Assembly (NCBI GenBank): GCA_919902495.1
Contig: CAKKRC010000025.1
Location: 17,687 to 81,686, forward strand
Source of the DNA: Nitrospiria bacterium
Lineage (GTDB): Bacteria > Nitrospirota > UBA9217
Length of the DNA: 64,000 nucleotides
Direction: 5' to 3'
The notes beneath the pieces are model-generated. The model saw only the letters and a list, made by a program, of their open reading frames with translations, did not search any database and was not told the origin of the DNA. Made by a program: the position numbers and the translations under genes. Below are positions 19,944 through 34,284 of this stretch, in pieces. The stretch's first letter is position 1, and each line of letters begins with the position of its first letter.

Positions 19944-21626
19944 CTATCTCGTCAGGTGTCTGTATTTAATGCGGTGCGGCTGGTCCGCCTCTGCGCCGAG
20001 CCGCTTCTTCCGGTCTTCCTCATACTCCGTGAAGTTCCCGTCGAAGAACGCCACCTTGCTGTCTCCCTCGAAAGCGAGGATATGCGTCGCGATCCTGTCC
20101 AGAAACCACCGGTCGTGGCTGATCACCACGGCGCAGCCGGCGAAGTTCTCGAGGCCCTCTTCGAGCGCCCGCATGGTGTTCACGTCGATGTCGTTCGTCG
20201 GCTCGTCGAGCAGCAGCACGTTGGCCTCTTCCTTCAGGATCCGCGCGAGGTGCACCCGGTTCCTCTCTCCTCCCGAGAGAACGCCCACCTTCTTCTGCTG
20301 GTCCGTGCCGCCGAAGTTGAAGCGCGACACGTAGGCGCGCGAGTTCATCAGGAGCTTGCCGAGCTGGATCTGCTCCTGGCCGCCGGTGATCACTTCCCAG
20401 ATGGTCTTGTTCGGATCGAGCACGTCGCGGCTCTGGTCCACATAACCCAGCTTCACGGTCTCGCCGACCCGGATCGTGCCCTTGTCCGGCTTGTCCTGAC
20501 CCGTGATCATGCGGAAGAGGGTTGTCTTGCCCGCGCCGTTCGGACCGATGACGCCCACAATGCCGCCCGGCGGCAGCATGAAGGACATGCCCTCGACGAG
20601 GATGTTGTCGCCGTAGGCCTTGGTCACATTGTCCGCCTCGATGACGACCTTGCCGAGCCTGGGTCCCGGCGGAATGTATATCTCCAGTTCCTTGCCGCGA
20701 GCCTCGGTCTGCTGGCGGAGCAGCTCTTCGTAGGAGCTGATGCGCGCCTTGGACTTGGCATGCCTGCCCTTGGGCGACATCCTGATCCATTCGAGCTCGC
20801 GGGCCAGCGTCTTCTGGCGTTCGCTTTCGGTCTTCTCCTCGAGCTTCAGCCGGTTGCCCTTCTGTTCGAGCCACGACGAGTAGTTCCCCTTCCACGGGAT
20901 GCCCTGTCCGCGGTCGAGTTCCAGGATCCAGCCGGCGACGTTGTCCAGGAAGTAGCGGTCGTGGGTCACGGCGATCACCGTTCCCTCGTACCGCTGGAGA
21001 TGATGCTCCAGCCAGGCAACTGACTCGGCGTCGAGATGGTTCGTGGGTTCGTCGAGGAGCAAGATGTCCGGCTTCTGGAGCAGCAAGCGGCAGAGCGCAA
21101 CGCGCCGTTTCTCGCCGCCCGACAGGACCTTCACCTTTGTCTCCCCGTCCGGACAGCGGAGCGCGTCCATGGCCATCTCGAGCATGCTGTCCAGCTCCCA
21201 GGCGTTCAGGTGGTCCAGCTTCTCCTGCACCGTGCCCTGCCGCTCGATCAACTTCTGCATCTCGTCGTCGGACATGGGATTGGCGAAGCTTTCGTTGATC
21301 TTGTTGTACTCATGCAGAAGGTCGACGGTCTGCTGCACGCCCTCTTCCACGCACTGGCGCACGGTCTTTTCGGGATCGAGCTTCGGCTCCTGCTCAAGGA
21401 ACCCGACGGTGTAGCCCCCGGAGAGCACAGCCTCGCCCACGAACTCCTTGTCCGCGCCCGCCATGATCCGGAGCAGCGAGCTCTTGCCCGAGCCGTTCAG
21501 GCCCAGGACCCCGATCTTCGCGCCGTAGAAATAGGACAGGTAGATGTCCTTCAGGACCGGCTTCTTGTCGTGGAACTTCCCCACGCCGACCATGGAATAG
21601 ATGATCTTGTTCGGTTCAGCAGACAT
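19944..21626 (-). CDS. ettA: Energy-dependent translational throttle protein EttA (ABC-F)
   Basis: 560-residue ABC-F protein, close to the normal EttA length. Two ATPase domains have Walker A GLNGSGKSS (near 39) and GPNGAGKTT (near 358). Signature motifs are LSGGEKRRVALC and LSGGERNRVHLA, with Walker B ILLLDEPTNHLD and VLLLDEPTNDID. There are no membrane segments. The interdomain linker is the EttA type. It binds the ribosomal E site and gates entry into elongation according to ATP/ADP ratio. Stand-alone gene; a dispersed repeat abuts its 3' end. Confidence 0.93.
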   Translation of the reverse strand: MSAEPNKIIYSMVGVGKFHDKKPVLKDIYLSYFYGAKIGVLGLNGSGKSSLLRIMAGADKEFVGEAVLSGGYTVGFLEQEPKLDPEKTVRQCVEEGVQQTVDLLHEYNKINESFANPMSDDEMQKLIERQGTVQEKLDHLNAWELDSMLEMAMDALRCPDGETKVKVLSGGEKRRVALCRLLLQKPDILLLDEPTNHLDAESVAWLEHHLQRYEGTVIAVTHDRYFLDNVAGWILELDRGQGIPWKGNYSSWLEQKGNRLKLEEKTESERQKTLARELEWIRMSPKGRHAKSKARISSYEELLRQQTEARGKELEIYIPPGPRLGKVVIEADNVTKAYGDNILVEGMSFMLPPGGIVGVIGPNGAGKTTLFRMITGQDKPDKGTIRVGETVKLGYVDQSRDVLDPNKTIWEVITGGQEQIQLGKLLMNSRAYVSRFNFGGTDQQKKVGVLSGGERNRVHLARILKEEANVLLLDEPTNDIDVNTMRALEEGLENFAGCAVVISHDRWFLDRIATHILAFEGDSKVAFFDGNFTEYEEDRKKRLGAEADQPHRIKYRHLTR

Positions 21627-21880
21627 AGGCTATTCAATACCTCCGATGGAGCCCCTCCGGAAGGAACCGGAGGTTTTCGATGATGAACGACATCCCGCAT
21701 CAGCGGGACCAAAATGGTAAGCCCTTTTGTACACTGTATTGCAGGGATGTGTCAACACCTAAAAGAGAGACCAACGGGGTAGGAATTGACTGAGGGAAGG
21801 AGGAAACAGAGAAAGGCATGAGTACGAAGTTCACCTACTACGTACGGCGCAATTTCAATGAAATGGAACTATCATCAAGT

Positions 21881-22020
21881 ACTAATACAAACGCACTTAC
21901 TATTGTGTCCTTGCGAGGAGCGTAGCGACGAAGCAATCTTTTATTTTACAACGAGATTGCCGCGCTCCCTTCGGTCTCTCGCAAAGACAACGTAACAAAA
22001 CTTTATGCGTTTGTATTAGT
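21881..22020. mobile_element. 140-bp MITE-like element with 15-bp perfect terminal inverted repeats
   Basis: Left end ACTAATACAAACGCA (21881-21895) and its exact inverse at 22006-22020. The interior contains TGCGAGGAGCGTAGCGACG and an inverted AGATTGC...CTCTCGCAA partner, forming a long imperfect hairpin. No reading frame. No clear target-site duplication is seen. A related internal sequence occurs at 53980-54095. The rest of the 21627-22197 gap holds nothing I recognise apart from a small GC hairpin near 21690. Confidence 0.7.
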
Positions 22021-22197
22021 TGTAACTTGCACATGAACATCATGCTGTGCGGCGGGCCCGCACGGTGATGAAAGATGGCACGAAGCTGCCGGCCCGTCCG
22101 CACCAGCTACGGATTAGGACGCAAATCCATTTGATTGCCGGGAGCACCGGCAACCCCAAGACAAAACTCACTCGTCGCTGCCGGGCCAGCGCTGATG

Positions 22198-22434
22198 TCA
22201 GACCCTCTTCCCGAGAATAAAGCTAAGCAAGAGAAGTGTTACCGGCCAGAGTCCGACGAAGATTCCCCAGCGTTCTGCGTGAGCTTCCTGTAGCGCCGCC
22301 TTCAGCGCGGGATCGGTGATTTTACCGAGTACGTGCCGTTTCATCTCGATTTGCGGTCCGAAAAACCACATCAGCCATGACAGCGGGATCGAAAGCAATC
22401 CGACCCAAAACAAGACTTGCGATAGCGTTTGCAT
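22198..22434 (-). CDS. Small membrane protein, two transmembrane helices
   Basis: 78 residues, not recognised. Hydrophobic segments at about 6-27 and 56-74 flank a charged middle (KITDPALKAALQEAHAERW). AAGGAGG precedes the ATG at 22434 by about six bases, which supports a real gene. It stands alone. Confidence 0.65.
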   Translation of the reverse strand: MQTLSQVLFWVGLLSIPLSWLMWFFGPQIEMKRHVLGKITDPALKAALQEAHAERWGIFVGLWPVTLLLLSFILGKRV

Positions 22435-22608
22435 GTCGTCCTCCTTATAATTATTGACATAATATAACTAACTGTGCTCCTATATCAGGCAGATGTCAAC
22501 TTAATAAAGAATGCAACATGATATGGTTCAAGCAAATGCAACTTCAACGAGTACAGGAAGTACTCTGCAGCTCTCCATCATCTCTTCGAGATTCATCTTC
22601 ACGAATCT

Positions 22609-23421
22609 TTAGGGCTCCGGCAGGCTGTCGATGGCCTCGCGGATGAACTGCGCCGGCACCACCGCCGCCAGCTGAAGACGCTGGCCGTCGATCGCCGCGT
22701 GCTGGCTCACGAGGCCGGCGATGAAATTGACCGGCACGGCAGCCCTGCCGCCGAACGCGCGCGAACCCGTATAGTACACGGGTCCGCCGCTGTTCCCCTC
22801 GTACACCTGAAAATCATAGAGGAAGGTGTGGTGTTGTTTGGCCGGAACGAGGGGATAGGAGGCGATCTTGCCACTCCGGAGGATCGGGAACCCGGCGGCG
22901 TTCGCGGCCAGGCCGAAGGGAAAGCCAAGCGAGAGCAGTTCGTCGCCGGGATGGACCTCGTACTGCGTCATCATCTGGTCGGTCGCCAGCAGCTCCTTCG
23001 AAAGCAGCACCACGTGGGCCTCGTTCGGCAGCGGCGCGTACATGACGGCGACATCCGCTCCCGGGGGCTGGGTCCAGAGCGGTGCGCCTTTGCTGCGTAT
23101 CCGCAGCCGGTGCTCCAAGCCTTCGAATGTTCCGTCCGCCTTCTTCCGACGCAGCCACAGGACCGCCTCGTCCCCGTTGATGTTCTGCAGCACGTGGCCT
23201 GCCGTCACCATGACGTAGGATGCCCGGTTCGGGTTGCTCTTGAGCGGGCGGCCCACGAAGAACACCGTCCCGACCGATATTTTACCTTCCCCTTTGGCCG
23301 GCCCTGCGATGCGGAAGGTCGATCCCATAAGAAGGACGTTCAGGTCCTCTGCACCGGCGATGCTCGGCGATGACAGGACAAAGCACAGGACAGCCAGGAC
23401 CATTTGCTTGAACTTCTGCAT
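22609..23421 (-). CDS. Exported trypsin-like serine protease
   Basis: 270 residues. Signal peptide residues 1-24 (ending SIAGAED). Chymotrypsin fold with a complete triad: His in VTAGHVL (near 75), Asp in GADVAVMY (near 122) and Ser in EGNSGGPV (near 210). There is no PDZ domain, so it is unlike DegP/HtrA. Periplasmic or secreted; substrate unknown. AAAGGAG precedes the ATG. The same-strand HDAC-like gene upstream ends about 50 bases away, so co-transcription is possible. Confidence 0.85.
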   Translation of the reverse strand: MQKFKQMVLAVLCFVLSSPSIAGAEDLNVLLMGSTFRIAGPAKGEGKISVGTVFFVGRPLKSNPNRASYVMVTAGHVLQNINGDEAVLWLRRKKADGTFEGLEHRLRIRSKGAPLWTQPPGADVAVMYAPLPNEAHVVLLSKELLATDQMMTQYEVHPGDELLSLGFPFGLAANAAGFPILRSGKIASYPLVPAKQHHTFLYDFQVYEGNSGGPVYYTGSRAFGGRAAVPVNFIAGLVSQHAAIDGQRLQLAAVVPAQFIREAIDSLPEP

Positions 23422-23473
23422 TGTTCAACTCCTTTGTGCTCGGAGAGCCCGGAAATTCGGCCCCGTTCCGGAC

Positions 23474-24391
23474 CTAGTGCTTCAGCATCTCTTCGATCGT
23501 GATCTTCACTGATTCACGCAGCGATGGAAGGTCGTACCCGCCTTCGAGAGCGAATACCATGGGGACCTCGGCGCTCGTGAGGATGCTCCGGACGATCCCG
23601 TGGATCCCTTCGTGGGTGACGCGGATGTTCGCGTGGGGGTCCTGTGCATGGATGTCGTAGCCGGCCGATACAAGGATGATGTCCGGCCCGAAGCGCTCCA
23701 CCACGCCGGGCAGGATATCCTGATACACGGAGAGGTAGTCCTTGTTGCCGGAGCCGGCGAGGATCGGCACGTTGTACGTATACCCCTCGCCCTTCCCTCT
23801 CCCCCGGTCCATATCCTTGCCCGTATCAGGGTAGTAGGGATACTGGTGGGTGCTGAAGTAGAAGACCGTGTCGTCCTCTTCAAAGATGTGCTGGGTTCCG
23901 TTCCCGTGATGGGCGTCGAAATCGATGATAAATACCTTGTTGTAGCCGCTCCGCTGAGCGTGGCGCGCGCCGACAGCGATATTGTTGAAGAGGCAGAAGC
24001 CCATGGACCTGCCGGCTTCGGCGTGGTGCCCCGGAGGCCGGACAGCGCAGAACACGCGCCGCATGCCGTTGTTCCGGCACTGTTCCACGGCTTCCATCAC
24101 CGCGCCCGCGGCAAAGGACGCGGCAGCGAAGCTTTCCACGGAGGTGAACGTGTCCGGGTCCACCTCGCCGGCGCCAAGGCTCCTGATCCGCTCTATGGCC
24201 TCGGGCGTGTGGACGAGCGCGAGGTCCTCGGGTGTCGCCTTGCGCGGCTTGAGATGGACAAGCTTACCCCAGAGGTCGACTGCTTTGAGGGAGGAATTGA
24301 TCGACAGAAGGCGGTCCGGGGTATCGGGATGCCAGGACGGGGGTGCGTGAAGGAGGAAGACCTCGTCGTAGATATAGCCGACCCTGTTCAT
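23474..24391 (-). CDS. Histone deacetylase family amidohydrolase
   Basis: 305 residues, full-length arginase/deacetylase fold. Motifs are RPPGHHAE (two active-site histidines), IIDFDAHHGNGT (zinc Asp and His) and SAGYDIHAQDP. Bacterial relatives deacetylate acetylpolyamines or act in acetoin utilisation (AcuC); the substrate here is unknown. The start at 24391 fits the family N-terminus (RVGYIYDE) but lacks a clear ribosome site. Longer starts overlap the upstream MocA-like gene, whose stop is 35 bases before this ATG, so translational coupling is likely. Confidence 0.88.
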   Translation of the reverse strand: MNRVGYIYDEVFLLHAPPSWHPDTPDRLLSINSSLKAVDLWGKLVHLKPRKATPEDLALVHTPEAIERIRSLGAGEVDPDTFTSVESFAAASFAAGAVMEAVEQCRNNGMRRVFCAVRPPGHHAEAGRSMGFCLFNNIAVGARHAQRSGYNKVFIIDFDAHHGNGTQHIFEEDDTVFYFSTHQYPYYPDTGKDMDRGRGKGEGYTYNVPILAGSGNKDYLSVYQDILPGVVERFGPDIILVSAGYDIHAQDPHANIRVTHEGIHGIVRSILTSAEVPMVFALEGGYDLPSLRESVKITIEEMLKH

Positions 24392-24425
24392 GGGACCAGT
24401 ATACTCACATTTCCCGCTTTCTGCA

Positions 24426-25013
24426 TCATGAGAAGCGTCCCCTGGCCCGTTCATAGTCTTCCGGCGTGTCCAGATCTTGAACGACACCTTCGTCATCCAC
24501 CTCGAGCGTGCGGACCGTGTCTGCGTGGGCCGTGATCACGTCGCGGAGCGTTGCGCTGCGAACAATGTCGCCGATGACCTCGCGCGGGAACAGGGTGGGA
24601 TGTCCGCGTCTGCCGTGATACGCCGGGATGATGACGTGGGCGGTGAATGCATGGTGGGCATGAACGATGGCCGAGATCGTGGCAGGTGATACCAGGGGGT
24701 GGTCGGACAGGCAGACCAGGACGCCGCTCGAGTCGGGGGCGACCTGCCGGAGCCCCAGCCGAACGGACCCGGCCATGTCGCTTGCTGGATCGCCATTGAT
24801 CATGGTCCTGACCGGCAGCCCGCTGATGGCCGCCTTGATCTCTTCGCTGCCTGCGCCGAGCACGACGACAATGTCGGTTATTCCCGCGGCGATGACGCTG
24901 TCCAGGCAATGGCGGATGACCGGTTTAGGACCGAGGGGAAGGAGCTGCTTGGAGCGGCCCATCCTGCGCGACGACCCCGCCGCAAGAACGACCGCCGATA
25001 CCTGTAGGGGCAT
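24426..25013 (-). CDS. Molybdenum cofactor cytidylyltransferase-like protein (MocA family)
   Basis: 195-residue nucleotidyltransferase. The N-terminal signature LAAGSSRRMGRSKQLLPL is the NTP-binding loop, and CLSDHPLV carries the metal-binding Asp. MocA-type enzymes attach CMP to molybdopterin for enzymes of the xanthine dehydrogenase family, which fits the molybdenum hydroxylase at 26367-28996. Its first 89 bases overlap the 3' end of the xdhC-like gene in another frame, so the pair is probably translationally coupled. Confidence 0.88.
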   Translation of the reverse strand: MPLQVSAVVLAAGSSRRMGRSKQLLPLGPKPVIRHCLDSVIAAGITDIVVVLGAGSEEIKAAISGLPVRTMINGDPASDMAGSVRLGLRQVAPDSSGVLVCLSDHPLVSPATISAIVHAHHAFTAHVIIPAYHGRRGHPTLFPREVIGDIVRSATLRDVITAHADTVRTLEVDDEGVVQDLDTPEDYERARGRFS

Positions 25014-25770
25014 GCTCTCTCCTGTGCTGGATGATCTGGGCCATGATGCTCACGGCGATCTCTTCGGGAGTGACCGAGCCGATGGGAAGCCCGACGGGGA
25101 TGATGACGCGTGCGATGTCCTCCTGAGAGAGGCCGGTATCGCGAAGGGCGTTCATCAGGAGGCCCTTTTTCCGTCTGCTGCCGAGCAGGCCGATGTAGGC
25201 TGCATCGGTTTTGAGCGCCGCCTTCACCGCGTCGAGATCGTGGTTGTGCCCCCGCGTGGCGATCAGGAGGAAGGTGCCCCTGTCAACAAGCACCCGGTCG
25301 AACACCGTCCCGAACTCGTGCACCACGATCTCATGGGCGTCGGGGATGCCGTCCCGGTTCGCGTGCTCCGGCCGGTCGTCCGCCACGGTCACGCGAAATC
25401 CCGAGAACCGCGCAAGCCGGGCGACCGCCTTGCCCACATGGCCGGCCCCAAGGATCACGAGCCGCGGGTCAACGAGCACCGGTTCGATGTATACCAGGAG
25501 CGTCCCGCCGCATACCAACCCGCCCTCTTTTTCGGTAAGATCGAAGGGGACCGTACGGGGCTGCCCGTCCCGCAGGGCCATGAGGCTATACTGGACCACG
25601 TCCGCTTCGAGGCACCCGCCGCCGAGCGTGCCCATCGCGGAGCCGTCGTCCCGCACCAGCATCTTGGCGCCCTGCTTCTGCGGCGACGAGCCCTTGCACT
25701 CCACGATGGTGGCGAGGGCGGATGCGCGGCCAAGCTTGTTAAGCCTCACGATCTCTTCATAGATGTCCAT
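24925..25770 (-). CDS. xdhC: XdhC/CoxI family molybdenum enzyme maturation factor
   Basis: 281 residues. The N-terminal XdhC/CoxI region (ATIVECKGSSPQKQGAKMLV; LGGGCLEADV) is followed by a Rossmann domain (VILGAGHVGKAVARLA) and GLLGSRRKKGLLM. XdhC proteins bind and help sulfurate molybdenum cofactor and insert it into xanthine dehydrogenase-type enzymes. The last about 30 residues lie in the unusually long overlap with the MocA gene and may be a non-native extension. Separated from its likely client genes by the four-helix-bundle cassette. Confidence 0.9.
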   Translation of the reverse strand: MDIYEEIVRLNKLGRASALATIVECKGSSPQKQGAKMLVRDDGSAMGTLGGGCLEADVVQYSLMALRDGQPRTVPFDLTEKEGGLVCGGTLLVYIEPVLVDPRLVILGAGHVGKAVARLARFSGFRVTVADDRPEHANRDGIPDAHEIVVHEFGTVFDRVLVDRGTFLLIATRGHNHDLDAVKAALKTDAAYIGLLGSRRKKGLLMNALRDTGLSQEDIARVIIPVGLPIGSVTPEEIAVSIMAQIIQHRREHAPTGIGGRSCGGVVAQDGPLQAAPSPRS

Positions 25771-25789
25771 GGAAACCTCAGTCTAAAAG

Positions 25790-25866
25790 CAGTCGGCAGT
25801 CGTCTGTCGGCAGTCGAATGCGAAATCACTATTGACTACGGCAATAGCTCAGGTCTCGGCAGTCAA
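25790..25866. repeat. GTCGGCAGTCG repeat cluster, left of the four-helix-bundle gene
   Basis: Several copies of GCAGTCGGCAGTCG-type words on the plus strand. It is inverted relative to the CGACTGCCGACTG words at 26250-26362. Confidence 0.75.
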
Positions 25867-26220
25867 ATACTGTATAAAACCGGTTATTAAGCGAGCCGTC
25901 TCCGATGCAGCCTCATACAAGTCCTTGAATTCAATGTCCACAATATATCCTTGATCAAGCGCCACATACAACTGGCTTTGGACCTCGGCAGTGGAGCCAA
26001 GAGCCATGTAGAGAAATCTTCCGAAATCTTTGTCCGTCCTCCTTGCAAATCCTTCCGCGATGTTGCTCATGACGGATACGGAAGCTCTTCGTATCTGATC
26101 TTTCAAACCATAATCACTGCCGAATTTTGTTTTACCGTTTGTTACCTCATAGATCGTCCTGGTCAGAACCCTCGCTTTCTGCCAGGCTTGAATATCTTCG
26201 AACCGTTGTATTTTCGCCAT
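25849..26220 (-). CDS. Four-helix bundle protein (23S rRNA intervening-sequence protein family)
   Basis: 123 residues with the family pattern: FEDIQAWQKAR, YGLKDQIRRASVSVMSNIAEGF and FLYMALGSTAEVQSQL. First described in intervening sequences of 23S rRNA genes and related to the Avd accessory proteins of retroelements; free-standing copies are common and of unknown function. The start at 26220 has AGAGG upstream. It lies alone between inverted clusters of a GTCGGCAG repeat, separating xdhC from the molybdenum hydroxylase genes, and the left cluster overlaps its 3' end. This looks like an inserted cassette. Confidence 0.88.
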   Translation of the reverse strand: MAKIQRFEDIQAWQKARVLTRTIYEVTNGKTKFGSDYGLKDQIRRASVSVMSNIAEGFARRTDKDFGRFLYMALGSTAEVQSQLYVALDQGYIVDIEFKDLYEAASETARLITGFIQYLTAET

Positions 26221-26249
26221 TCGACCTCTTTCCAATTATTATTTGACCG

Positions 26250-26362
26250 CCGACTGTCGTCTGTTTTATTAACTGCCGACTATCTTCCCGACTGCCGACT
26301 TGTTTTTTGACTCTCGACTTTTTTCCCGACTGCCGACTGTCGACTGCCTCATGACTATCGAC
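26250..26362. repeat. CGACTGCCGACTG repeat cluster, right of the four-helix-bundle gene
   Basis: Six or more degenerate copies of GACTGCCGACT or GACTNTCGACT. It ends four bases before the stop codon of the molybdenum hydroxylase gene. Confidence 0.75.
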
Positions 26363-26366
26363 TGTA

Positions 26367-28544
26367 TTATCCTTTCATTGCAGCCAATACGGCGGCCGGC
26401 GTCATCGGCAGGCTCCTGAGCCTGACCCCCGTCGCCGCGAAGACCGCGTTCGCAACTGCCGGGGCAGCGGGCGGCACGCCGGGCTCGCCGATGCCGCCGA
26501 GCGGGTCCTTGCCGGTCACGATATGCACATCGATCTCCGGCGTCTCGCTCATGCGCAGGAGGTCGTAATCGCCGAAGTTCGTCGTCTTGACACCGCCGCC
26601 GGCGAACTCGACCTTTTCCTTGAGCGCGGCAGAGAGGCCCATGATGATGCCGCTCTCCATCTGGGCGGCCACGGTGTCAGGATTGATGACCGATCCGCAG
26701 TCCACGGCGCACGTGATCTTATGGACCTTTATCGTTCCGGTCGCCCTGTCCACCGAGACCTCCGCCACCTGGGCGACGTAGGTCCCGAAGGAGAGATGGT
26801 AGGCGATGCCGACGGCCTGGCCTTTCGCCGGTTTCCTGCCCCAGCCGGCCTTCTGTGCCGCTGTCTCGAGCACGCGCTTCGCCCGCGGATGTTTCTGCAG
26901 CAGTCCCAGCCTGAATTCCAGCGGGTCCTTGCCCGCGGCTGCGGCCAGCTCGTCCACAAAGGACTCGATGATGAACCCGTTGTGCGACGCGCCGACGGAA
27001 CGCCAGAATCCGACCGGCACGGGCAGATCGACGCGGACATACTCGGCCAGGAGGTTCGGCACATCGTATTCCAGGTCCGTGACGCCCTCGACCGCGGCAT
27101 TGTCGATGCCGTTCTTCATCATGCCCGGGAAGACCCGGGCGAAGATGGAGGGACAGGCGATCTTGTGGGACCAGGCAGTCACCTTCCCCTTGTCATCAAG
27201 GGCGGCTTCGATCTTCGTATAGTTCGCCGGACGATAGAAGTCATTCTGAAAATCCTCTTCCCGGGTCCAGACGACCTTCACGGGCATTCCGGCGGTCTTC
27301 GCGATGTTCACCGCTTCTTCGGCGAAGTCCGTCTCGAAGCGCCTGCCGAAACCGCCGCCCAGGTAGGTCGTATGGACGAAGACCTGCTCGGGCTTGAGCC
27401 CCGTGGCCTTCACGGCCATGCCCTTGACACCTCCCTGGTTCTGCGTCGGCGCCCAGATATCGCACCGCTCGGCCGTGACCGACGCGGCGCAGTTCATGGG
27501 CTCCATGGTCGCGTGGGCCAGGTAGGGCGTCCGGTACTCCGCTTCCACCTTCTTTGTCGCGGCCGCGAGCGCTGCCTTCGCGTCACCCAGGCTCTTTGCG
27601 ACCAGGCCCGGTTCGCCGATCCTGGCTGCGATGTCCTTCTCCAGGGTCGAGGTATCAAGCGCCGGCGCCTTGGCGTTCTGCCAGGTGATGTTCAGGACTG
27701 CCCTCCCCTTCCACGCCGCGTCCAGCGTGTCCGCGACAACGGCGATGCCGCGCGGACCTTCGATCACCGCCTGGACGCCCTTGACCTGCTTCGCCGCTTC
27801 CTTGTTGACGGCTGCGGGCTCGGCACCGTACTGGGGCGGTCGTGCCATCACGGCGTACAGCATGCCCGGTGCGAAGGTATCGATGCCGAACATCGCCTTG
27901 CCAGTGGACTTCTCCGGCACATCGAGGCGCGGCATGGCCTTGCCGATATACTTGAATTGGCCTTCCTTCTTGAGGGTCGGATTCTGCGGCACCGGAAGGC
28001 GCGATGCCTCGAACACCAGCTTCCCGTACGAGAGGCCCTTGCCCGTCCGCATGTGCCGGACCACGCCGTTCACGGCAGCGCACTCACGGAGCGGCGCCTT
28101 CAGAGCCTCGGAACCGGCAGCGATGAGCATCTCCCGGCCGGCGGCCCCGGCCTTCCGGAGGGTTTCGTGCATGTGGCGCACGCTCGTGCTGCCGCCTGTT
28201 GACTGCATGCCCCAGACCGGGTCCTTGTACGCGTCGGCGGCCGGCGCGGACACGAACCGCACCTGCTTCCAGTCCGCTTCGAGCTCGTCGGCGATGATCA
28301 TGGGCAGGGACGTGGTCACGCCCTGTCCCATCTCTGACTTGCTCACCACCACGGTGATGGAATCATCGGGTGCAATGCGGAGATAGACGTTCGGCTTGAA
28401 CGACAGGTCCTGTTCCAGCTCGGCGGCGGAGAGCAGGCGAAGGCCCGCCGGCGTCATGACGGCGGCGATGGTCAGGCCCGCCCCGGCGGCGAGGGAGGTC
28501 TTCAGGAACTCGCGGCGGGTATATTCTTTTTTGGTCCTCTTCAT
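26367..28544 (-). CDS. Exported molybdenum hydroxylase large subunit (IorB-like)
   Basis: 725 residues, xanthine dehydrogenase/aldehyde oxidase superfamily, molybdopterin cytosine dinucleotide-binding subunit. The N-terminus [16 protein letters not shown] is a twin-arginine signal, so the folded enzyme is exported. Cofactor motifs include GGGFGRRFE and the C-terminal [17 protein letters not shown] with the catalytic Glu. The layout resembles isoquinoline 1-oxidoreductase IorB and periplasmic aldehyde dehydrogenases; the substrate is unknown. Its ATG overlaps the stop of the FeS subunit gene (ATGA). The [2Fe-2S] subunit lacks a signal and would be co-exported as a complex. Confidence 0.92.
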
Positions 28545-28996
28545 GGCCGTTTGCCCTCCTTTGCCGCCGACCTGACGGCCAGCTTGATGCGCGGATAGGT
28601 CCCGCACCGGCAGAGGTTGCCGTCCATGGCGCGCACGATCCTGTCGTCCGAGGGGTTCGGTTCCTCGGCCAGGAGCGCCGCGGCCTGCATGATCTGGCCC
28701 GACTGGCAGTAGCCGCACTGGGGGACCTGCTCCTTGATCCATGCCCTGACCACCGGATGGCTCTCGGCGAGGCCCTCGATGGTCGTTATCCTCTTTCCCG
28801 CTACGGACCCCACGCGGGTCTGGCAGGAGCGCGCCGCCTTGCCGTCGATATGGACGGTGCAGGAGCCGCAGGCGCCGATACCACAGCCGAACTTGGTGCC
28901 CGTAAGCTTCAGGTGCTCGCGGATGACCCAGAGGAGCGGAACGTCCGGACCCGCATCCACCTGGTAAGCCTTCCCGTTGATATCAAGCGAGATCAT
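28541..28996 (-). CDS. [2Fe-2S] small subunit of the molybdenum hydroxylase (IorA-like)
   Basis: 151 residues. The N-terminal plant-type ferredoxin cluster is CGIGACGSC plus a later C (AARSC). The C-terminal second cluster is CGYCQSGQ and CRCGTY. Transfers electrons from the molybdenum centre to an acceptor. There is no flavin subunit nearby, so a cytochrome or quinone acceptor is likely, as in IorAB enzymes. It overlaps the large subunit by four bases and is the first gene of the pair. Confidence 0.92.
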
Positions 28997-29028
28997 AGAT
29001 GCCTCCTTTTAATGAGATTACATACTCG

Positions 29029-29125
29029 CGCCACTAAGGCACGAAGACACGAAGGGGGGGGTCTTGAATTCTTGCGTAATGAACAAAACGCCCCCATCCT
29101 GCATTTCTTCGTGTCTTCGTGGCAG
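29029..29125. repeat. Inverted-repeat element of the CCACTAAGGCACGAAGACAC family (copy 1)
   Basis: Left end GCCACTAAGGCACGAAGACA and right end TTCTTCGTGTCTTCGTGGC are inverted around a 50-base centre. The same ends occur at 54318-54425, where the element cuts a HEPN gene. Confidence 0.85.
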
Positions 29126-29243
29126 ATATTGTCCAGCTTGTGGGGAGATACGTTTAAGTTAATCAGATGGGAAAAGCAATGTCAAGAGGCGGAGATCGCT
29201 GCGGATGTATCTTGAACTTTTAATTTCGCATGCTGAATGATAT

Positions 29244-30422
29244 TCAGGCCACCTGCCCCGCGGCAAAGCCCGATGCCCAGGCCCAGTGCAGGTTGTATCC
29301 GCCAAGCTCCCCGGTCACGTCGACGACCTCGCCGATAAAATAGAGGCCGGGGACCTTCTTCGCCTCCATCGTTTTCGACGACAGTTCGTCCGTGTCCACG
29401 CCGCCCGCGGTCACCTCCGCGGTCGCATATCCTTCGGTGCCCTTGGGGAGCACGTTCCAGGCATGGAGCCCGTCAGCGAGCGCCTTTAACGCCCGGTCCG
29501 AGGTCTGGTCGAACGGCTTCGAGATCGTCATCTGGTCGCACCACGCCTCGGCAAACCGTTTCGGAAGCCAGGACGCGAGCATAGTGCGCAACTCGATCCT
29601 GCTCCGGCGTCTGGCCATGAACTCACGGAGAATGTCCGTATCGGGAAGAAGGTCTATCGTGAGCAGTTCGCCGGGCGTCCAGGAGAGCGATGCCTGGAGC
29701 GCCGCCGGACCGCTCAGGCCGCGGTGGGTGAACAGGATGTTCCCACGGTACCGCTTCGTGCCGCAGGAAACCGCCGTATCGAGGGAGATCCCTGCGAGCC
29801 CTTGAAAGACCTTTTGGTCGCGTGCCGCGAACAGAAAGGGCACGAGACCCGGCCTGGGCGGGACGACCTTGAGGCCGAACTGCTTGCCGACGGCGTGCCC
29901 AAGACCGCTCGCCCCGAGGTCGGGATAGGAAAGTCCGCCGGTGGCGATGACGAGCGACTCCGCCCGGAACGCCCCCTGGTCGGTTGCGACCATGAAGTTC
30001 TGACCGCGGGCGATCTCCGTCACGCTGCATTTCAGGCGTATCTCCACGCCATATTGGGCGCACTCTGCTTCCAGCAGGGCGATGATCTCAGCTGCGCTTT
30101 TTACGCAGAAAAGCTGGCCCGCTTCCTTTTCCTGATAGGCGATATGGTGCTGCTCGATAAGGTCGAGCACGTCACGGGGGGTGAAGCGCGCGAGGGCGGA
30201 TCTGCAGAAGTGGCTGTTGCGGGAGACATAGTGTCCGGCGGTCACGTGCAGGTTCGTGAAATTGCACCGGCCGCCGCCGGATATGCGGATCTTCGAGCCG
30301 GTCCTGCGTGCATGGTCCAGGACGAGCACCGAGCGGCCTCGCTTTCCGCATTCAATGGCGCAGAGCAGGCCTGATGCCCCTGCGCCGATAATGATGACAT
30401 CCTTCGCTGTTCCTTCACTCAC
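29244..30422 (-). CDS. FAD-dependent oxidoreductase, HI0933/BaiN family
   Basis: 392-residue flavoprotein of the YhiN/HI0933 family. The FAD-binding motif is IIGAGASGLLCAIECGKRG; the family signature GSKIRISGGGRCNFTN and the C-terminal GEVVDVTGELGGYNLHWAWASG are clear. Function of the family is poorly defined; one member (BaiN) reduces bile-acid intermediates. Full length. Followed on the same strand by a triheme cytochrome gene 40 bases upstream of its own start region, but no operon logic is evident. Confidence 0.9.
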   Translation of the reverse strand: MSEGTAKDVIIIGAGASGLLCAIECGKRGRSVLVLDHARRTGSKIRISGGGRCNFTNLHVTAGHYVSRNSHFCRSALARFTPRDVLDLIEQHHIAYQEKEAGQLFCVKSAAEIIALLEAECAQYGVEIRLKCSVTEIARGQNFMVATDQGAFRAESLVIATGGLSYPDLGASGLGHAVGKQFGLKVVPPRPGLVPFLFAARDQKVFQGLAGISLDTAVSCGTKRYRGNILFTHRGLSGPAALQASLSWTPGELLTIDLLPDTDILREFMARRRSRIELRTMLASWLPKRFAEAWCDQMTISKPFDQTSDRALKALADGLHAWNVLPKGTEGYATAEVTAGGVDTDELSSKTMEAKKVPGLYFIGEVVDVTGELGGYNLHWAWASGFAAGQVA

Positions 30423-30464
30423 GAGGACCCCGGGGTGCCGTTTTGCGTCCCGAACCTCATGCTC

Positions 30465-30854
30465 CTAATTGTGCTTTTTCTTCTTCGTGTCCTTGCGCTT
30501 GTCATCCTTCTTGTCATCGCTGGTCTCTTTCTTTTCTGCCTTATGGCATTTATGGCAATCCTTTGGTTCCGTGGTACTGAAGGCCTTTTTCCCGTTGTGG
30601 CATACGCCGCAAAATTTTCCCTGTTTCATCGCGTCCATGGTCATGATATCGGCGCCCTTTTTCGTCTTGAACAGCCCTGCGATATGGCATGCATCGCAAT
30701 GGATCTTGGCATGCTTCGTACCGTCAAAGGTCACCTTGCCTGCGCCGCCGCCCGGCCACGTAAGGGTTACTCCATCGGGAACGGCCGATGAGACCGCCGG
30801 AAACAGGAAGAACGCCAGGAATAGAATGACACTATTGAATGTGTACTTGGACAT
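30465..30854 (-). CDS. Periplasmic triheme cytochrome c (c7-like) with lysine-rich tail
   Basis: 129 residues with a signal peptide (residues 1-24). Three heme sites: CDACH (53-57), CGVCH (82-86) and CHKCH (100-104). Paired upstream histidines (H48, H52) are in the arrangement of cytochrome c7/c3 proteins. The tail from residue 105 is about half lysine. It should carry electrons in the periplasm and could serve the bc complex or the molybdenum hydroxylase; neither link is shown. GGAGG precedes the ATG at 30854. Confidence 0.88.
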   Translation of the reverse strand: MSKYTFNSVILFLAFFLFPAVSSAVPDGVTLTWPGGGAGKVTFDGTKHAKIHCDACHIAGLFKTKKGADIMTMDAMKQGKFCGVCHNGKKAFSTTEPKDCHKCHKAEKKETSDDKKDDKRKDTKKKKHN

Positions 30855-30986
30855 CTTACGCCTCCATAAGGAAACAAATCACTGAAGTGTCATTATAACA
30901 TATTGTTGAACGGGTCAATGCGGAAAAATAAAGCCCTGCAGGACGGGTGCTGCAACAGTCTGCGACACGGCGCTCCCGGCACCCTG

Positions 30987-32216
30987 TTACTCATACCGGA
31001 GCGCGTCAATGGGGTTGAGCAGCGAAGCCTTGTAGGCGGGGTAGAATCCGAAGAAGATGCCGATGAACCCGGAAAAACCGAAGGCCAGCACGATGGACAG
31101 GGGCGAGACGACTGTGGGCCAGCCGGACAGGGACGACAGGGCCATCGCGGTCGACACCCCGACGATGATGCCGACGATACCGCCGATCAGGGACAGCGTG
31201 AGCGCCTCGATGATGAACTGGAGCCGGATGTCCCAGGTCTTGGCGCCGATGGCCATGCGGATGCCGATCTCGCGCGTCCGTTCGGTGACGGACACCAGCA
31301 TGATGTTCATGATGCCGATGCCGCCGACAAGGAGCGAGACCGACGCGATAGCGCCGAGCAGAAGGGTCATGACCTTCGTGGACTCTTCACGCGCCTGCAT
31401 GAGCTGGGTGAGGTTCCGGACCGTGAAATCGTTGTCCTGTTTCGGCCCGATCCGGTGGCGCTGCTTCAAGAGGGCGGTGATCTGCTGCTCCGCGGCGGCA
31501 AGGTCCTCGGCGCTTTTCGCCTTGACCGAGATGATCCGCACCATGCCGGGGAACTGGGCGCCGAAGAGCTTCTTCTGGGCCGTCGTGACCGGGATCATGA
31601 TCGTATCATCCTGATCGCGCCCCTGGGCATCCTGCCCCTTCCGGGCCAGGACGCCGACCACGGTGAACGGCAGGTTCTTGATCCTGATCGTCTGGCCCAC
31701 GGGATCCTGGTCCCCGAACAGGTTGTCCACCACGGTCTGGCCCAGGAGGGCGACCTTGGTCGCGCTCTTCACGTCCTGGCTGGTGAAAGGCCGCCCCGCG
31801 GTCAGCGGCCATTCCCGGATGTCCAGCATGGACGGCGTCGTGCCGAGAACGCCGGTGGACCAGTTCATGTGGCTGAACACGATCTGCGCGGTGCCGCTGT
31901 GGGTCGGCGCCACGGCTTCCACGGCCGGGCATTCGCGTAGAATTGCCTCGGCATCGGCCATGGTAAGCGTGGGCTGCGTGCCCGCGCCCATGCGCACGCC
32001 CCCGGAGGTTGTGGCGCCGGGCAGGATGATCAGCAGGTTGCTCCCCATGCTCGATATCTGCTCGGCGATCTTTTGGCTCGCGCCGGCTCCCACGGCGACC
32101 ATGGCGATCACCGCGCCGACGCCGATGATGATGCCCAGCATAGTGAGGCCTGAGCGCATCTTGTTCACCCGGAGCGCCCGGATCGAGATCTTGAAGGTGG
32201 AAGGGATGTTGATCAT
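30987..32216 (-). CDS. MacB-type ABC transporter permease
   Basis: 409 residues. One N-terminal transmembrane helix (SGLTMLGIIIGVGAVIAMVAVG), a large periplasmic MacB core domain (about 45-290) and three C-terminal helices with the FtsX signature (ERTREIGIRMAIGAKTWDI). The ATPase is a separate gene, unlike E. coli MacB. Works with the MacA-like adaptor and TolC-like channel in the same operon to export substrates from the periplasm. Last gene of the efflux operon. Confidence 0.9.
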   Translation of the reverse strand: MINIPSTFKISIRALRVNKMRSGLTMLGIIIGVGAVIAMVAVGAGASQKIAEQISSMGSNLLIILPGATTSGGVRMGAGTQPTLTMADAEAILRECPAVEAVAPTHSGTAQIVFSHMNWSTGVLGTTPSMLDIREWPLTAGRPFTSQDVKSATKVALLGQTVVDNLFGDQDPVGQTIRIKNLPFTVVGVLARKGQDAQGRDQDDTIMIPVTTAQKKLFGAQFPGMVRIISVKAKSAEDLAAAEQQITALLKQRHRIGPKQDNDFTVRNLTQLMQAREESTKVMTLLLGAIASVSLLVGGIGIMNIMLVSVTERTREIGIRMAIGAKTWDIRLQFIIEALTLSLIGGIVGIIVGVSTAMALSSLSGWPTVVSPLSIVLAFGFSGFIGIFFGFYPAYKASLLNPIDALRYE

Positions 32217-32230
32217 AAATTAATAATATC

Positions 32231-32289
32231 GTAGGGGCAACCCTATGTGGTTGCCCTGATGCGGGCGGCCACGCAGGGCCGCCCCTACC
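32231..32289. repeat. GTAGGGGC...GCCCCTAC palindromic element (copy 3)
   Basis: Same design as 18346-18404 with the order of the two inner hairpins exchanged (GGGCAACC/GGTTGCCC first). It overlaps the stop codon (32285-32287) of the MacB-like ATPase gene. Confidence 0.88.
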
Positions 32290-32974
32290 GCGCTACCGCT
32301 TCATCGCTCACAATGTGCCCGTCCGAGAACCGGATGATCCGCTTGCTGTATGCCGCAATGTCGTGCTCATGGGTCACCAGGATGACGGTGATGCCGGACT
32401 CCCGGTTCAGCCTCACGAAGAGCTCCATGATCTCGGCGCTCGTTCTGGTGTCGAGATTGCCCGTAGGTTCGTCTGCGAGGATGATCGGCGCGTCGTTCAC
32501 CAGCGCCCGGGCGATGGCAACACGCTGCTGCTGGCCGCCGGAAAGCTGGTTCGGGTGATGGCCTTCCCTGCCCTCCAATCCCACGCTTGTAAGGGCGGAC
32601 ATCGCGCGCTCATGCCGTTCCGGGGCGGTGTTGCCGTTGTAGAGCATTGGCAGCTCGACATTCTCGAGCGCCGAGGTGCGGGAAAGGAGGTTAAACCCCT
32701 GGAACACGAAGCCGAGCTTCTTGTTCCGGATCTCGGCGAGCTCGTCCCGGGAGAGCCCGCCCGTGTCAACGCCGTCGAGCAGGTACTGTCCCTGGGTCGG
32801 CGTGTCGAGGCAGCCCAGGATGTTCATGAACGTCGACTTGCCCGAACCGGACTGGCCCATGATGGCGACGAACTCGCCCTGCTCGATGGCCGTCGAGATG
32901 CCGTCGAGGGCCTTTAGATCGATGTCGCCGAGCCGGTATATCTTGCTGATCGTATGTGCTTCGATGAGGGCCAT
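32285..32974 (-). CDS. MacB-type ABC transporter ATP-binding protein
   Basis: 229 residues. Walker A GQSGSGKST, signature LSGGQQQRVAIARAL and Walker B IILADEPTGNLD, with the LolD/MacB subgroup pattern (GFVFQGFNLL). Supplies ATP hydrolysis to the permease at 30987. No good ribosome site is visible before the ATG at 32974, because a dispersed palindrome (32989-33048) lies just upstream; translation may depend on coupling from the MacA gene. A second copy of the repeat supplies its stop codon. Confidence 0.92.
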   Translation of the reverse strand: MALIEAHTISKIYRLGDIDLKALDGISTAIEQGEFVAIMGQSGSGKSTFMNILGCLDTPTQGQYLLDGVDTGGLSRDELAEIRNKKLGFVFQGFNLLSRTSALENVELPMLYNGNTAPERHERAMSALTSVGLEGREGHHPNQLSGGQQQRVAIARALVNDAPIILADEPTGNLDTRTSAEIMELFVRLNRESGITVILVTHEHDIAAYSKRIIRFSDGHIVSDEAVAR

Positions 32975-32988
32975 AGAATATAGAAATT

Positions 32989-33048
32989 GTAGGGGTAACC
33001 CTACGTGGTTACCCTTTTCCCGGGCGGCCACATGGGGCCGCCCCTACC
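32989..33048. repeat. GTAGGGG...CCCCTAC palindromic element (copy 4)
   Basis: Diverged copy with inner hairpins GGGTAACC/GGTTACCC and GGGCGGCC/GGCCGCCC. With copy 3 it brackets the MacB-like ATPase gene. Confidence 0.85.
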
Positions 33049-33066
33049 AATATATAGGGTCCACCA

Positions 33067-34284
33067 TTAGAACATCCTGGGTCCGCTCTGTGCGGCCTTC
33101 GGGGCACCCTTCTTCAGTGATTCGACGATGATCTGCTGGCCTTCCTTCAGCTCGCCTGACGCGATCTCCGTATAATTGCCGTCGCTGATGCCGGGCGAAA
33201 TGCTGACGCGCTTTGGCGTCCCCTGCTCCAGCACCCAGACCGAGGGCCCCTTTTTCTCGCCGCCCCCGCCGCCGGCCCTGGCCGCCGCCCCGCTCCCCGG
33301 ACCCGATGCGCCCGCACCCGCAGGCCGGTCGGACATGCGGAACCGCAGCGCGGCGTTCGTGATCCGGAGGACGTCGCGCCTCGTCGTAATGATGATCGAT
33401 ACATTGGCGGTCATGCCGGGCATCAGCCGGAGGTCGCTGTTGTTCACCTGGATCACGGTGTCATAGGTCACGACATTCTGCACCGTGATGGGCGCCTGCC
33501 GCTTCTGCCATACCTTGCCCTTGAACGTCGTGTCGGGATAGGCGTCCACCGTGAACTCCACGTCCTGCCCGACCTTCACCGCGCCGATGTCGGATTCCGC
33601 CACGTTCGTGTCGATCTGCATCTTCGTGAGGTCCTGGGCGATCGTAAAGAGCGTGGGCGTCTGGAAGCTCGCGGCCACGGTCTGTCCCACGTCAACGTTC
33701 CGGGAGATCACGATGCCGTCCACGGGAGAATAGATCTTCGTGTAGCTCAAGTTCGTCTCGGCCGCCTGGAGCGCCGCCTTTGCCTGGGCAAGCTGCGCCT
33801 TGGCGCTGTCGTAGTTGGTCTCCGCGGCATCGTAATCGTTCTTCGCGACCAGGTTCCGCGCAAAGAGGTTCTTGTTCTGATTCATGAGGCGCTCTGCGTC
33901 GCGCAGTGCCGCCTGGGCACGGTCCGCATTGGCCTTTGCCTGGGCCAGCTGGGTCTCATAGAACGCGGGATCGATCTGGGCGATGATCTGGCCCTTCTTC
34001 ACCCGGGAATTGAAATCCGCGAAGAGGGACTTGATCGCTCCCGACACCTGGGTGCCGACCTGCACGGTGGTGACCGGATTCACGGTGCCGGTTGCCGTGA
34101 CGTTCTGCTGAACATCGCCCCGCGTGACCGGATCGGTCCGGTACGCCACCCCGTTGTTCCCGCCCCGGAAAATAACAAAAAGCGCGATGCCGAGGACGGC
34201 CGCTGCAGCGGCGATGATCGCGATCATCCGGAACCGGCTGCTTCCAAGGATCGTGCTGATGCTTGATGGTTTTTTATTATTCAT
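33067..34284 (-). CDS. macA: MacA-like periplasmic adaptor (HlyD family)
   Basis: 405 residues. One N-terminal membrane helix (MIAIIAAAAAVLGIALFVIF), then lipoyl-like halves around a long coiled-coil hairpin (about 95-185, rich in AQAKA repeats), a beta-barrel domain and a Gly/Ala-rich insertion near 350. Connects the MacB-type ABC transporter to a TolC-family channel. Overlaps the RND pump gene by eight bases. Confidence 0.9.
   Translation of the reverse strand: MNNKKPSSISTILGSSRFRMIAIIAAAAAVLGIALFVIFRGGNNGVAYRTDPVTRGDVQQNVTATGTVNPVTTVQVGTQVSGAIKSLFADFNSRVKKGQIIAQIDPAFYETQLAQAKANADRAQAALRDAERLMNQNKNLFARNLVAKNDYDAAETNYDSAKAQLAQAKAALQAAETNLSYTKIYSPVDGIVISRNVDVGQTVAASFQTPTLFTIAQDLTKMQIDTNVAESDIGAVKVGQDVEFTVDAYPDTTFKGKVWQKRQAPITVQNVVTYDTVIQVNNSDLRLMPGMTANVSIIITTRRDVLRITNAALRFRMSDRPAGAGASGPGSGAAARAGGGGGEKKGPSVWVLEQGTPKRVSISPGISDGNYTEIASGELKEGQQIIVESLKKGAPKAAQSGPRMF

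Follow-up and report, generated by a model that had tools for sequence, protein, structure and literature searches.

An S23 four-helix-bundle gene between inverted heptamer arrays: a probable mobile element with dispersed S23-less derivatives

To our knowledge, no function is accepted for proteins of the S23 family apart from the rRNA intervening sequence. Many bacteria carry short tandem heptamers, on whose origin there is no agreement, and the cyanobacterial STRRs are heptamer repeats whose origin is unexplained. The intervening sequences with an S23 open reading frame in the 23S rRNA of Leptospira and Coxiella are sporadic, have been called parasitic or selfish, and have long been suspected to be mobile (PMC4990558, in its accessible sections). 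The family profile PF05635 resembles Avd according to the consulted part of a review (PMC10053308), which also cites the paper on the structure 2GSC under a title describing five four-helix bundles. In REPIN-RAYT systems, as outlined in the available portion of PMC3116915, doublets of inverted short repeats form hairpins and are dispersed non-autonomously, the same type of repeat flanks a gene, and repeat and protein co-evolve. Among heptamer repeats, the GGGAATC pairs of Xanthomonas (PMC4692102) and the paired hepta- and octanucleotide sites of Geobacter (PMC2700814) were reported, in the consulted parts of these papers, without a known agent, and the P6b motifs of Nostoc trnL introns are described in the accessible text of PMC4476775 as heptamer stems of unresolved origin in which the motif is exchanged wholesale. 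S23 goes unmentioned in the available sections on the MITEs of Anabaena 90 (PMC3542288) and on the TAACTGA repeats (PMC4679880). We found no report of S23 genes with flanking repeat arrays in the open-access literature, to which the search was confined (subscription papers and preprints fell outside its scope, and an earlier report is possible).

The S23 gene described here lies in the window, by which we mean the whole 64,000-nucleotide stretch of DNA analysed from a Nitrospiria bacterium. Profile searches place it well inside the family (119.6 bits for PF05635, whose cut-off is 33.8, and 114.4 for TIGR02436, whose cut-off is 24), and its open frame, read from a TTG start, extends to 26235. 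The first-pass annotation, made from the letters alone, had placed the gene between inverted clusters of short repeated words, as is indeed the case: GTCGGCAGTCG units stand on the plus strand at 25792 and 25806 and on the minus strand at 26289, 26327, and 26334 (Table 1). It was also right that the cassette separates xdhC from the genes of the molybdenum and Fe-S subunits. The overlap that it saw between one cluster and the 3' end of the gene is confined to a degenerate unit, and the exact words (25792-25816) lie beyond the stop codon. The upstream arm, of about 120 nt, ends beside the stop codon of the molybdenum subunit, the downstream arm is positioned just before the xdhC start, and the cassette fills the 596-nt gap between that stop and that start. 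The inverted repeat of 38 nt found by repeat search (25779-25816 with 26327-26364) is 76% complementary, and the cassette folded as single-stranded DNA is stabler than 100 of 100 shuffles (z -3.9). S23 is the only family gene found between the arms, and no recognisable transposase, as in an IS element or MITE, was found there. Upstream of the Fe-S subunit gene, positions 29036-29126 hold S23-less inverted short repeats (CACGAAGACACGAAG ... CTTCGTGTCTTCGTGG) with an architecture like that of the cassette arms.

Table 1. Features of the S23 cassette and its neighbours (positions in the window)
Feature	Position	Strand	Evidence and remarks
S23 / four-helix-bundle CDS	25849..26220	-	ATG start; PF05635 E 8.9e-35, TIGR02436 E 2.7e-33
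Upstream arm, degenerate CAGTCGG heptamers with A-rich spacers	26243..26364	-	Sequence; repeat family D1; inverted repeats I1, I4, I8, I19; arm alignment
Downstream arm, two GTCGGCAGTCG words, inverted relative to upstream arm	25779..25816	+	Repeat search, word count, alignment
Downstream arm, third degenerate unit	25856..25868	+	Repeat family D5; overlaps 3' end of S23 gene
xdhC (XdhC_CoxI + XdhC_C)	24925..25770	-	Profile matches; insertion neighbour
Molybdopterin-binding subunit, Tat signal	26367..28544	-	PF02738, PF20256; start inferred from Tat signal; other insertion neighbour
[2Fe-2S] subunit of the same enzyme	28541..28996	-	PF01799, PF00111

The AlphaFold model of the window S23 protein (pLDDT 94.2) is a four-helix bundle whose best PDB match by Foldseek is 2GSC (E 1.4e-6, TM 0.86), followed by 2RLD and then by the Avd protein of a Bordetella phage DGR, both alone (4DWL) and in the DGR ribonucleoprotein. 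Against the 4DWL chains, the model reaches a TM of 0.70-0.75 at a sequence identity of 9-12%. Although the fold is thus that of DGR Avd (4DWL, 8UB7), no reverse transcriptase is present among the five neighbouring proteins scanned at the cassette. With the 23S rRNA intervening sequence, as far as the accessible sections of its description go, the cassette shares the protein family and an open frame bounded by terminal inverted repeats, but it lies between protein genes, with no Rfam match at gathering scores in positions 20000-34000, it ends on either side in tandem arrays whose 7-8-nt unit is specific to the lineage, and its S23-less derivatives are dispersed through the genome. With REPIN-RAYT it shares dispersed inverted doublets of the repeat that flanks the gene, and a repeat that co-evolves with the protein. 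In contrast with RAYT, a Y1 (HUH) tyrosine transposase, the flanked gene here encodes an S23 four-helix bundle with no known catalysis, and whereas REPs are single palindromes in the part of the literature consulted, the units here are tandem heptamers. The STRRs and the trnL P6b, Xanthomonas, and Geobacter repeats resemble the arrays, according to the portions available to us, in their degenerate 7-8-nt tandem units, often in oppositely oriented pairs, and in their presence in many copies per genome or their wholesale exchange. The consulted parts of PMC4476775, PMC4692102, and PMC2700814 do not tie any of them to S23.

Within the window, GTCGGCAGTCG with at most one mismatch occurs seven times, five of them at the cassette, against an expectation of 2.07 (sd 1.43) and with none of 100 shuffles reaching seven. 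The whole 3.67-Mb genome has ten exact copies, of which four are at the cassette; by eye, five of the six other sites (L008, L009, L010, L015, and L016) are in arrays of that unit, which sit away from the seven S23 matches of the genome and several of which have an inverted partner. Six of these seven PF05635 matches are above the cut-off. GACTGYC units are absent from the flanks of the other S23 copies, which rules out one repeat common to all S23 copies of the genome. All six above-cut-off copies nevertheless have flanks that are complementary beyond the 99th percentile of the cross-pair null, with sequences that differ from copy to copy (GAAGTTGG, GACGCGGG, ATTGCGG, CAAATTG, and CAGTCGG; the repeat of L005 is non-tandem). 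The seventh match (L007) scores under the cut-off and belongs to a longer frame, and its flanks do not exceed this null. The census of gene copies and repeats that the first-pass annotation had proposed thus gives arrays particular to each above-cut-off S23 copy, but GTCGGCAGTCG is not common to the other S23 genes. That annotation had also held that repeats unrelated to those of other copies would speak against its idea; taken literally, this is what the absence of GACTGYC elsewhere amounts to, but it misses the point, since each copy has its own arrays.

In the window's family, xdhC is adjacent to the molybdenum subunit gene in all nine genomes with xdhC, including that of the window (xdhC was not found in 5 of the 14 genomes), and S23 is absent from the gap in the eight others. 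The window copy thus has empty counterparts at the level of gene order (8/8), but the intergenic DNA does not align. In relatives without the cassette (L194, L195, and L200), the gap upstream of xdhC contains other short-period repeats, of the CACAGAGGACACAGAGG, GACGCGAAGGACGCAAAGG, and GCAAAGCCGCAAAG types, as if this intergenic gap were a hot spot.

For a wider comparison, S23 loci were taken from the genus, the family, and the phylum, from the best 80 of 587 named contigs (many phyla), and from viral contigs. Ten named loci were dropped as fragments, duplicates, below cut-off, or of other architecture (L007, L018, L029, L037, L047, L050, L061, L068, L354, and L355), as were loci whose flanks were shorter than 120 nt, those with frames outside 270-560 nt, and those with identical frames. 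Interrupted S23 frames were retained for the flank test. Among the resulting 218 loci, 165 have inverted 7-8-nt arms above the 99th percentile of cross-pairs, with a unit period of 7 nt in 125 and of 8 nt in 27 of them; a quarter (53/218) have no arms at this threshold. In direct orientation, 41 of the 218 also pass. Flanks displaced outwards were positive in 1/178 cases and a same-spacing control upstream in 1/203. Together with the excess of the word in the window, these displaced-flank controls reject a chance origin of the repeats. Arms are found at an archaeal locus (L085, narrowly), at two of five CPR loci (L144 and L158, the other three being negative), at 24 of 33 IMG/VR loci with flanks, and on 9 of 10 named cyanobacterial plasmid cassettes (two of the ten being near-identical). 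Phage records, searched with one query, gave no S23 match. In an earlier set of 150 arm-positive loci among 198, the upstream arm is C-poor on the coding strand (13.8% against 26.2% in the control) and ends at a median of 28 nt before the start codon, and the downstream arm starts at a median of 6 nt after the stop.

The unit follows the relatedness of the S23 proteins. Among non-orthologous pairs, those of at least 65% protein identity share it in 21 of 37 cases (2.7% in a wrong-arm pairing control of this class), those at 55-65% in 8.6% of 221, and those below 55% in 0.4-0.9%, with a 5% sample taken of the classes under 45%. In some genomes, such as G000, G001, and G013, two S23 subfamilies whose units are distinct, [AT]TGCGGA and AAATTGN, are found together. 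At orthologous sites, an arm matches its partner within the locus better than the opposite arm of the orthologue (means 34.8 against 27.8, p 5e-8, for 68 pairs that are not independent and were taken without a score filter). Comparison across loci thus indicates an array unit particular to each S23 protein lineage. In four Rhizobiales records ranging from Bosea to Rhizobium (L095, L106, L108, and L151), an S23 cassette is apparently kept at one site, while its arms alternate from record to record between the CAGTCGG type and the CAATAGG type; this cassette may have a host function.

The first-pass annotation had suggested that free-standing members of the family might move together with repeats of this sort, and three kinds of observation bear this out for the family, namely, matches restricted to the element, empty sites precise to the nucleotide, and S23-less elements with the same ends. 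Two cassettes from two genomes of one genus (L060 and L076) are 94% identical within unrelated flanks. Two others in a single genome (L201 and L202), both with a stop codon within the S23 frame, are 95% identical and differ in the sequence outside the element, with other repeats in common further out. Of 35 genomes in the genus of Brucella pseudintermedia, 14 have a cassette between a glutamine-synthetase-like gene and an oxidoreductase gene, names given by inspection of the sequence. The cassette is full-length in 12 of these, in two pieces in one, and cut by a contig end in one, and it is absent from this site in the other 21 genomes. The stop and start codons of the neighbours are 10 nt apart in all 16 empty sites read, and the remaining five gave split matches only, with 137 nt of other DNA in G158. 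Purifying selection on the S23 orthologues in this genus is strong (median dN/dS 0.054, for the 44 of 78 pairs with usable dS). Three genomes with the cassette at this same site (G157, G175, and G171) carry an S23 allele that is 83-97% identical among themselves and about 79% identical to the others, with arms mostly of the GGCAG type instead of the GGGAG type, and the genomes nearest to them in flank sequence (91.6-96.6%) have the other kind of S23 and arm. Since the S23 allele changes along with the arms, concerted change of one inherited cassette was dropped, and exchange of the whole gene-arm unit is the better reading of these differences.

Cyanobacterial plasmids give a similar picture. 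The Trichormus variabilis cassette is cleanly absent from Tolypothrix and Nostoc linckia plasmids with flanks 97.5-99.8% identical; at the same site, Nostoc C052 has a decayed remnant consisting of an array and a gene fragment (L434:1246-1377). In Nostoc ATCC 53789, one small gene that belongs to a conserved cluster has an S23 cassette on one side in one plasmid and on the other side in a second plasmid. These two cassettes differ from each other, as do their units, and each of the two sites is empty in related plasmids. At the junctions read (Brucella genus, Nostocales plasmids, and Nostoc N6), there is no consistent target-site duplication, and the cassettes lie between genes, leaving both neighbouring reading frames usable. 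Taken together, the comparisons indicate that the S23 gene and its arms move and are exchanged as one unit.

Comparison also shows shorter elements, with the same arms and no S23 gene, scattered through these genomes. In 420 kb sampled from the window genome, five pairs of short-period arrays were inverted and one was direct, an undercount, since the detector missed the window cassette itself. Two S23-less pairs have the ATTGCGG arms of another S23 copy of this genome (L004) around unrelated interiors devoid of genes. With at most one mismatch and overlapping units counted, the genome has 173 ATTGCGG motifs (0 in the backward control), and of 54 arrays examined, 27 have an inverted partner within 800 nt (22 inward and 5 outward, members counted singly) and 27 have none. 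The interior of one S23-less element contains a further palindromic repeat, GATTGCTTCGTCGCTTCGCTTCTCGCAATGAC (L244:19772-19803). In the Brucella genus, arrays of RGGSAGTA are present in 14/14 genomes with the cassette (8-59 matches, cassette arms included), all of which also have such arrays outside the cassette, against 2/21 without a cassette at that site, a comparison uncorrected for phylogeny and in which S23 genes elsewhere were not excluded. These two exceptions have seven matches with a full inward pair (G165, L399) and one match in a single array (G174), the backward control is 0 in all 35 genomes, and three empty genomes that fall inside the occupied group in the locus tree (G150, G182, and G167) have no arrays. 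The first-listed array belongs to an inward pair in 15 of 16 genomes, and one of these pairs (L397) is that of the S23 cassette. Interiors without S23 measure 34 to about 140 nt and fall into a few sequence families. In Nostoc sp. N6, an S23 gene is interrupted by a 182-nt S23-less element (L440:1348-1529), whereas Nostoc C052 has this gene, in almost the same surroundings, annotated as intact. The element has the same GTCAGAATTCAG arms as the gene that it interrupts, and sequence related to it occurs at 98 places in 43 plasmid records. On pNsp_c of Nostoc ATCC 53789, an S23-less heptamer element (L435:1229-1488) occupies the place where N. edaphicum has an S23 cassette. In the window's family, three genomes (G003, G004, and G011) have many ATTGCGG/AGTGCGG arrays and no S23 gene of that subfamily was found in them; across the 14 family genomes, the association between the number of these arrays and the presence of S23 subfamily A is only suggestive (Mann-Whitney p 0.08). 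A comparison of open frames of at least 450 nt was uninformative, with 42/50 array rows and 172/180 random positions falling in such frames.

From these sequence comparisons, we consider it likely that the window cassette belongs to a widespread kind of mobile element, of which it is one copy and in which an S23 gene lies between inverted 7-8-nt arrays, S23-less derivatives share the arms, and the S23 protein acts in mobilisation. An unrelated enzyme, for example an HUH transposase of the IS200/IS605 or RAYT type, might instead mobilise the arrays, with S23 as a frequent passenger between two of them. That S23-less elements are common and differ in their interiors, and that some genomes have arrays but no matching S23 gene, would agree with this, but a passenger should hardly be accompanied by arms in 165 of 218 cases across many phyla, nor would the unit be expected to follow S23 relatedness, gene and arms to be exchanged together, or arrays to be found in all 14 Brucella-genus genomes that have the cassette and in just 2 of the 21 that lack it at that site, and we regard this explanation as unlikely. 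Somewhat less probable still is that S23 is an RNA-binding protein and the arrays RNA stem-loops for processing or regulation, the S23-less arrays forming a regulon and their spread being secondary. The intervening sequence of Coxiella is, in the accessible text of PMC4990558, an S23 open frame looped out by a terminal inverted repeat of 28 bp, which RNase III cleaves, the S23 fold also matches Avd inside the DGR ribonucleoprotein, and the cassette folds well, although this was computed as DNA. However, the arm mismatches have no excess of G-U over A-C (155 against 175, p 0.30, in the earlier set of 198 loci), so that nothing points to selection on an RNA stem, a candidate that we therefore consider unsupported, and both the patterns of presence and absence and the insertion into an S23 frame look like those of a mobile element; the missing G-U bias is compatible with an RNA intermediate. 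Finally, that the arrays are ordinary slippage-born minisatellites in which S23 genes happen to sit, a view already disfavoured, is very improbable. Heptamers are over-represented among the simple repeats of many bacterial genomes (PMC4692102, in its consulted part), but insertion into a tandem array would give arms of the same orientation instead of the inverted arms observed, arms match better within a locus than across the 68 orthologous pairs, and the displaced controls are positive only once each.

If S23 does act in mobilisation, the element would be comparable to REPIN-RAYT with an Avd-fold protein in the place of the transposase, and by this analogy REPIN-RAYT is its nearest working model. 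The S23 protein, a pentamer in the solved relative, would recognise the array, probably when single-stranded DNA or RNA folds into a hairpin, and would deliver it to a host enzyme for copying or pasting. The S23-less elements would depend on S23 in trans, in the way proposed for REPINs and RAYT. Since there is neither a clear target duplication nor a transposase, a single-strand or templated route fits better than a DDE transposase. More tentatively, and with somewhat less than even confidence, S23 might stand for a class of mobile DNA without a transposase, in which an Avd-fold pentamer and a host polymerase, reverse transcriptase, or repair enzyme copy any segment between inverted arrays of its own heptamer, and which may be a common source of the heptamer repeats of bacteria, including cyanobacterial STRRs, trnL P6b stems, the GGGAATC pairs of Xanthomonas, and ACACAGAGG-type repeats. 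Apart from the arms observed on the cyanobacterial plasmid S23 cassettes (9/10), this link between S23 and heptamer repeats of unknown origin is one that we infer. It predicts that the S23 gene XCC0516 of Xanthomonas campestris, whose protein is that of PDB 2GSC, lies between inverted GGGAATC arrays.

If S23 genes and arrays form one element with non-autonomous derivatives, the function of S23 and the origin of the heptamers would become a single testable system, composed of a protein of ~120 residues, an array accessible to synthesis, and strains that have or lack it. Such an element would add a mobility protein that is not a transposase and has the fold of DGR Avd, and it would explain intergenic repeats in many genomes.
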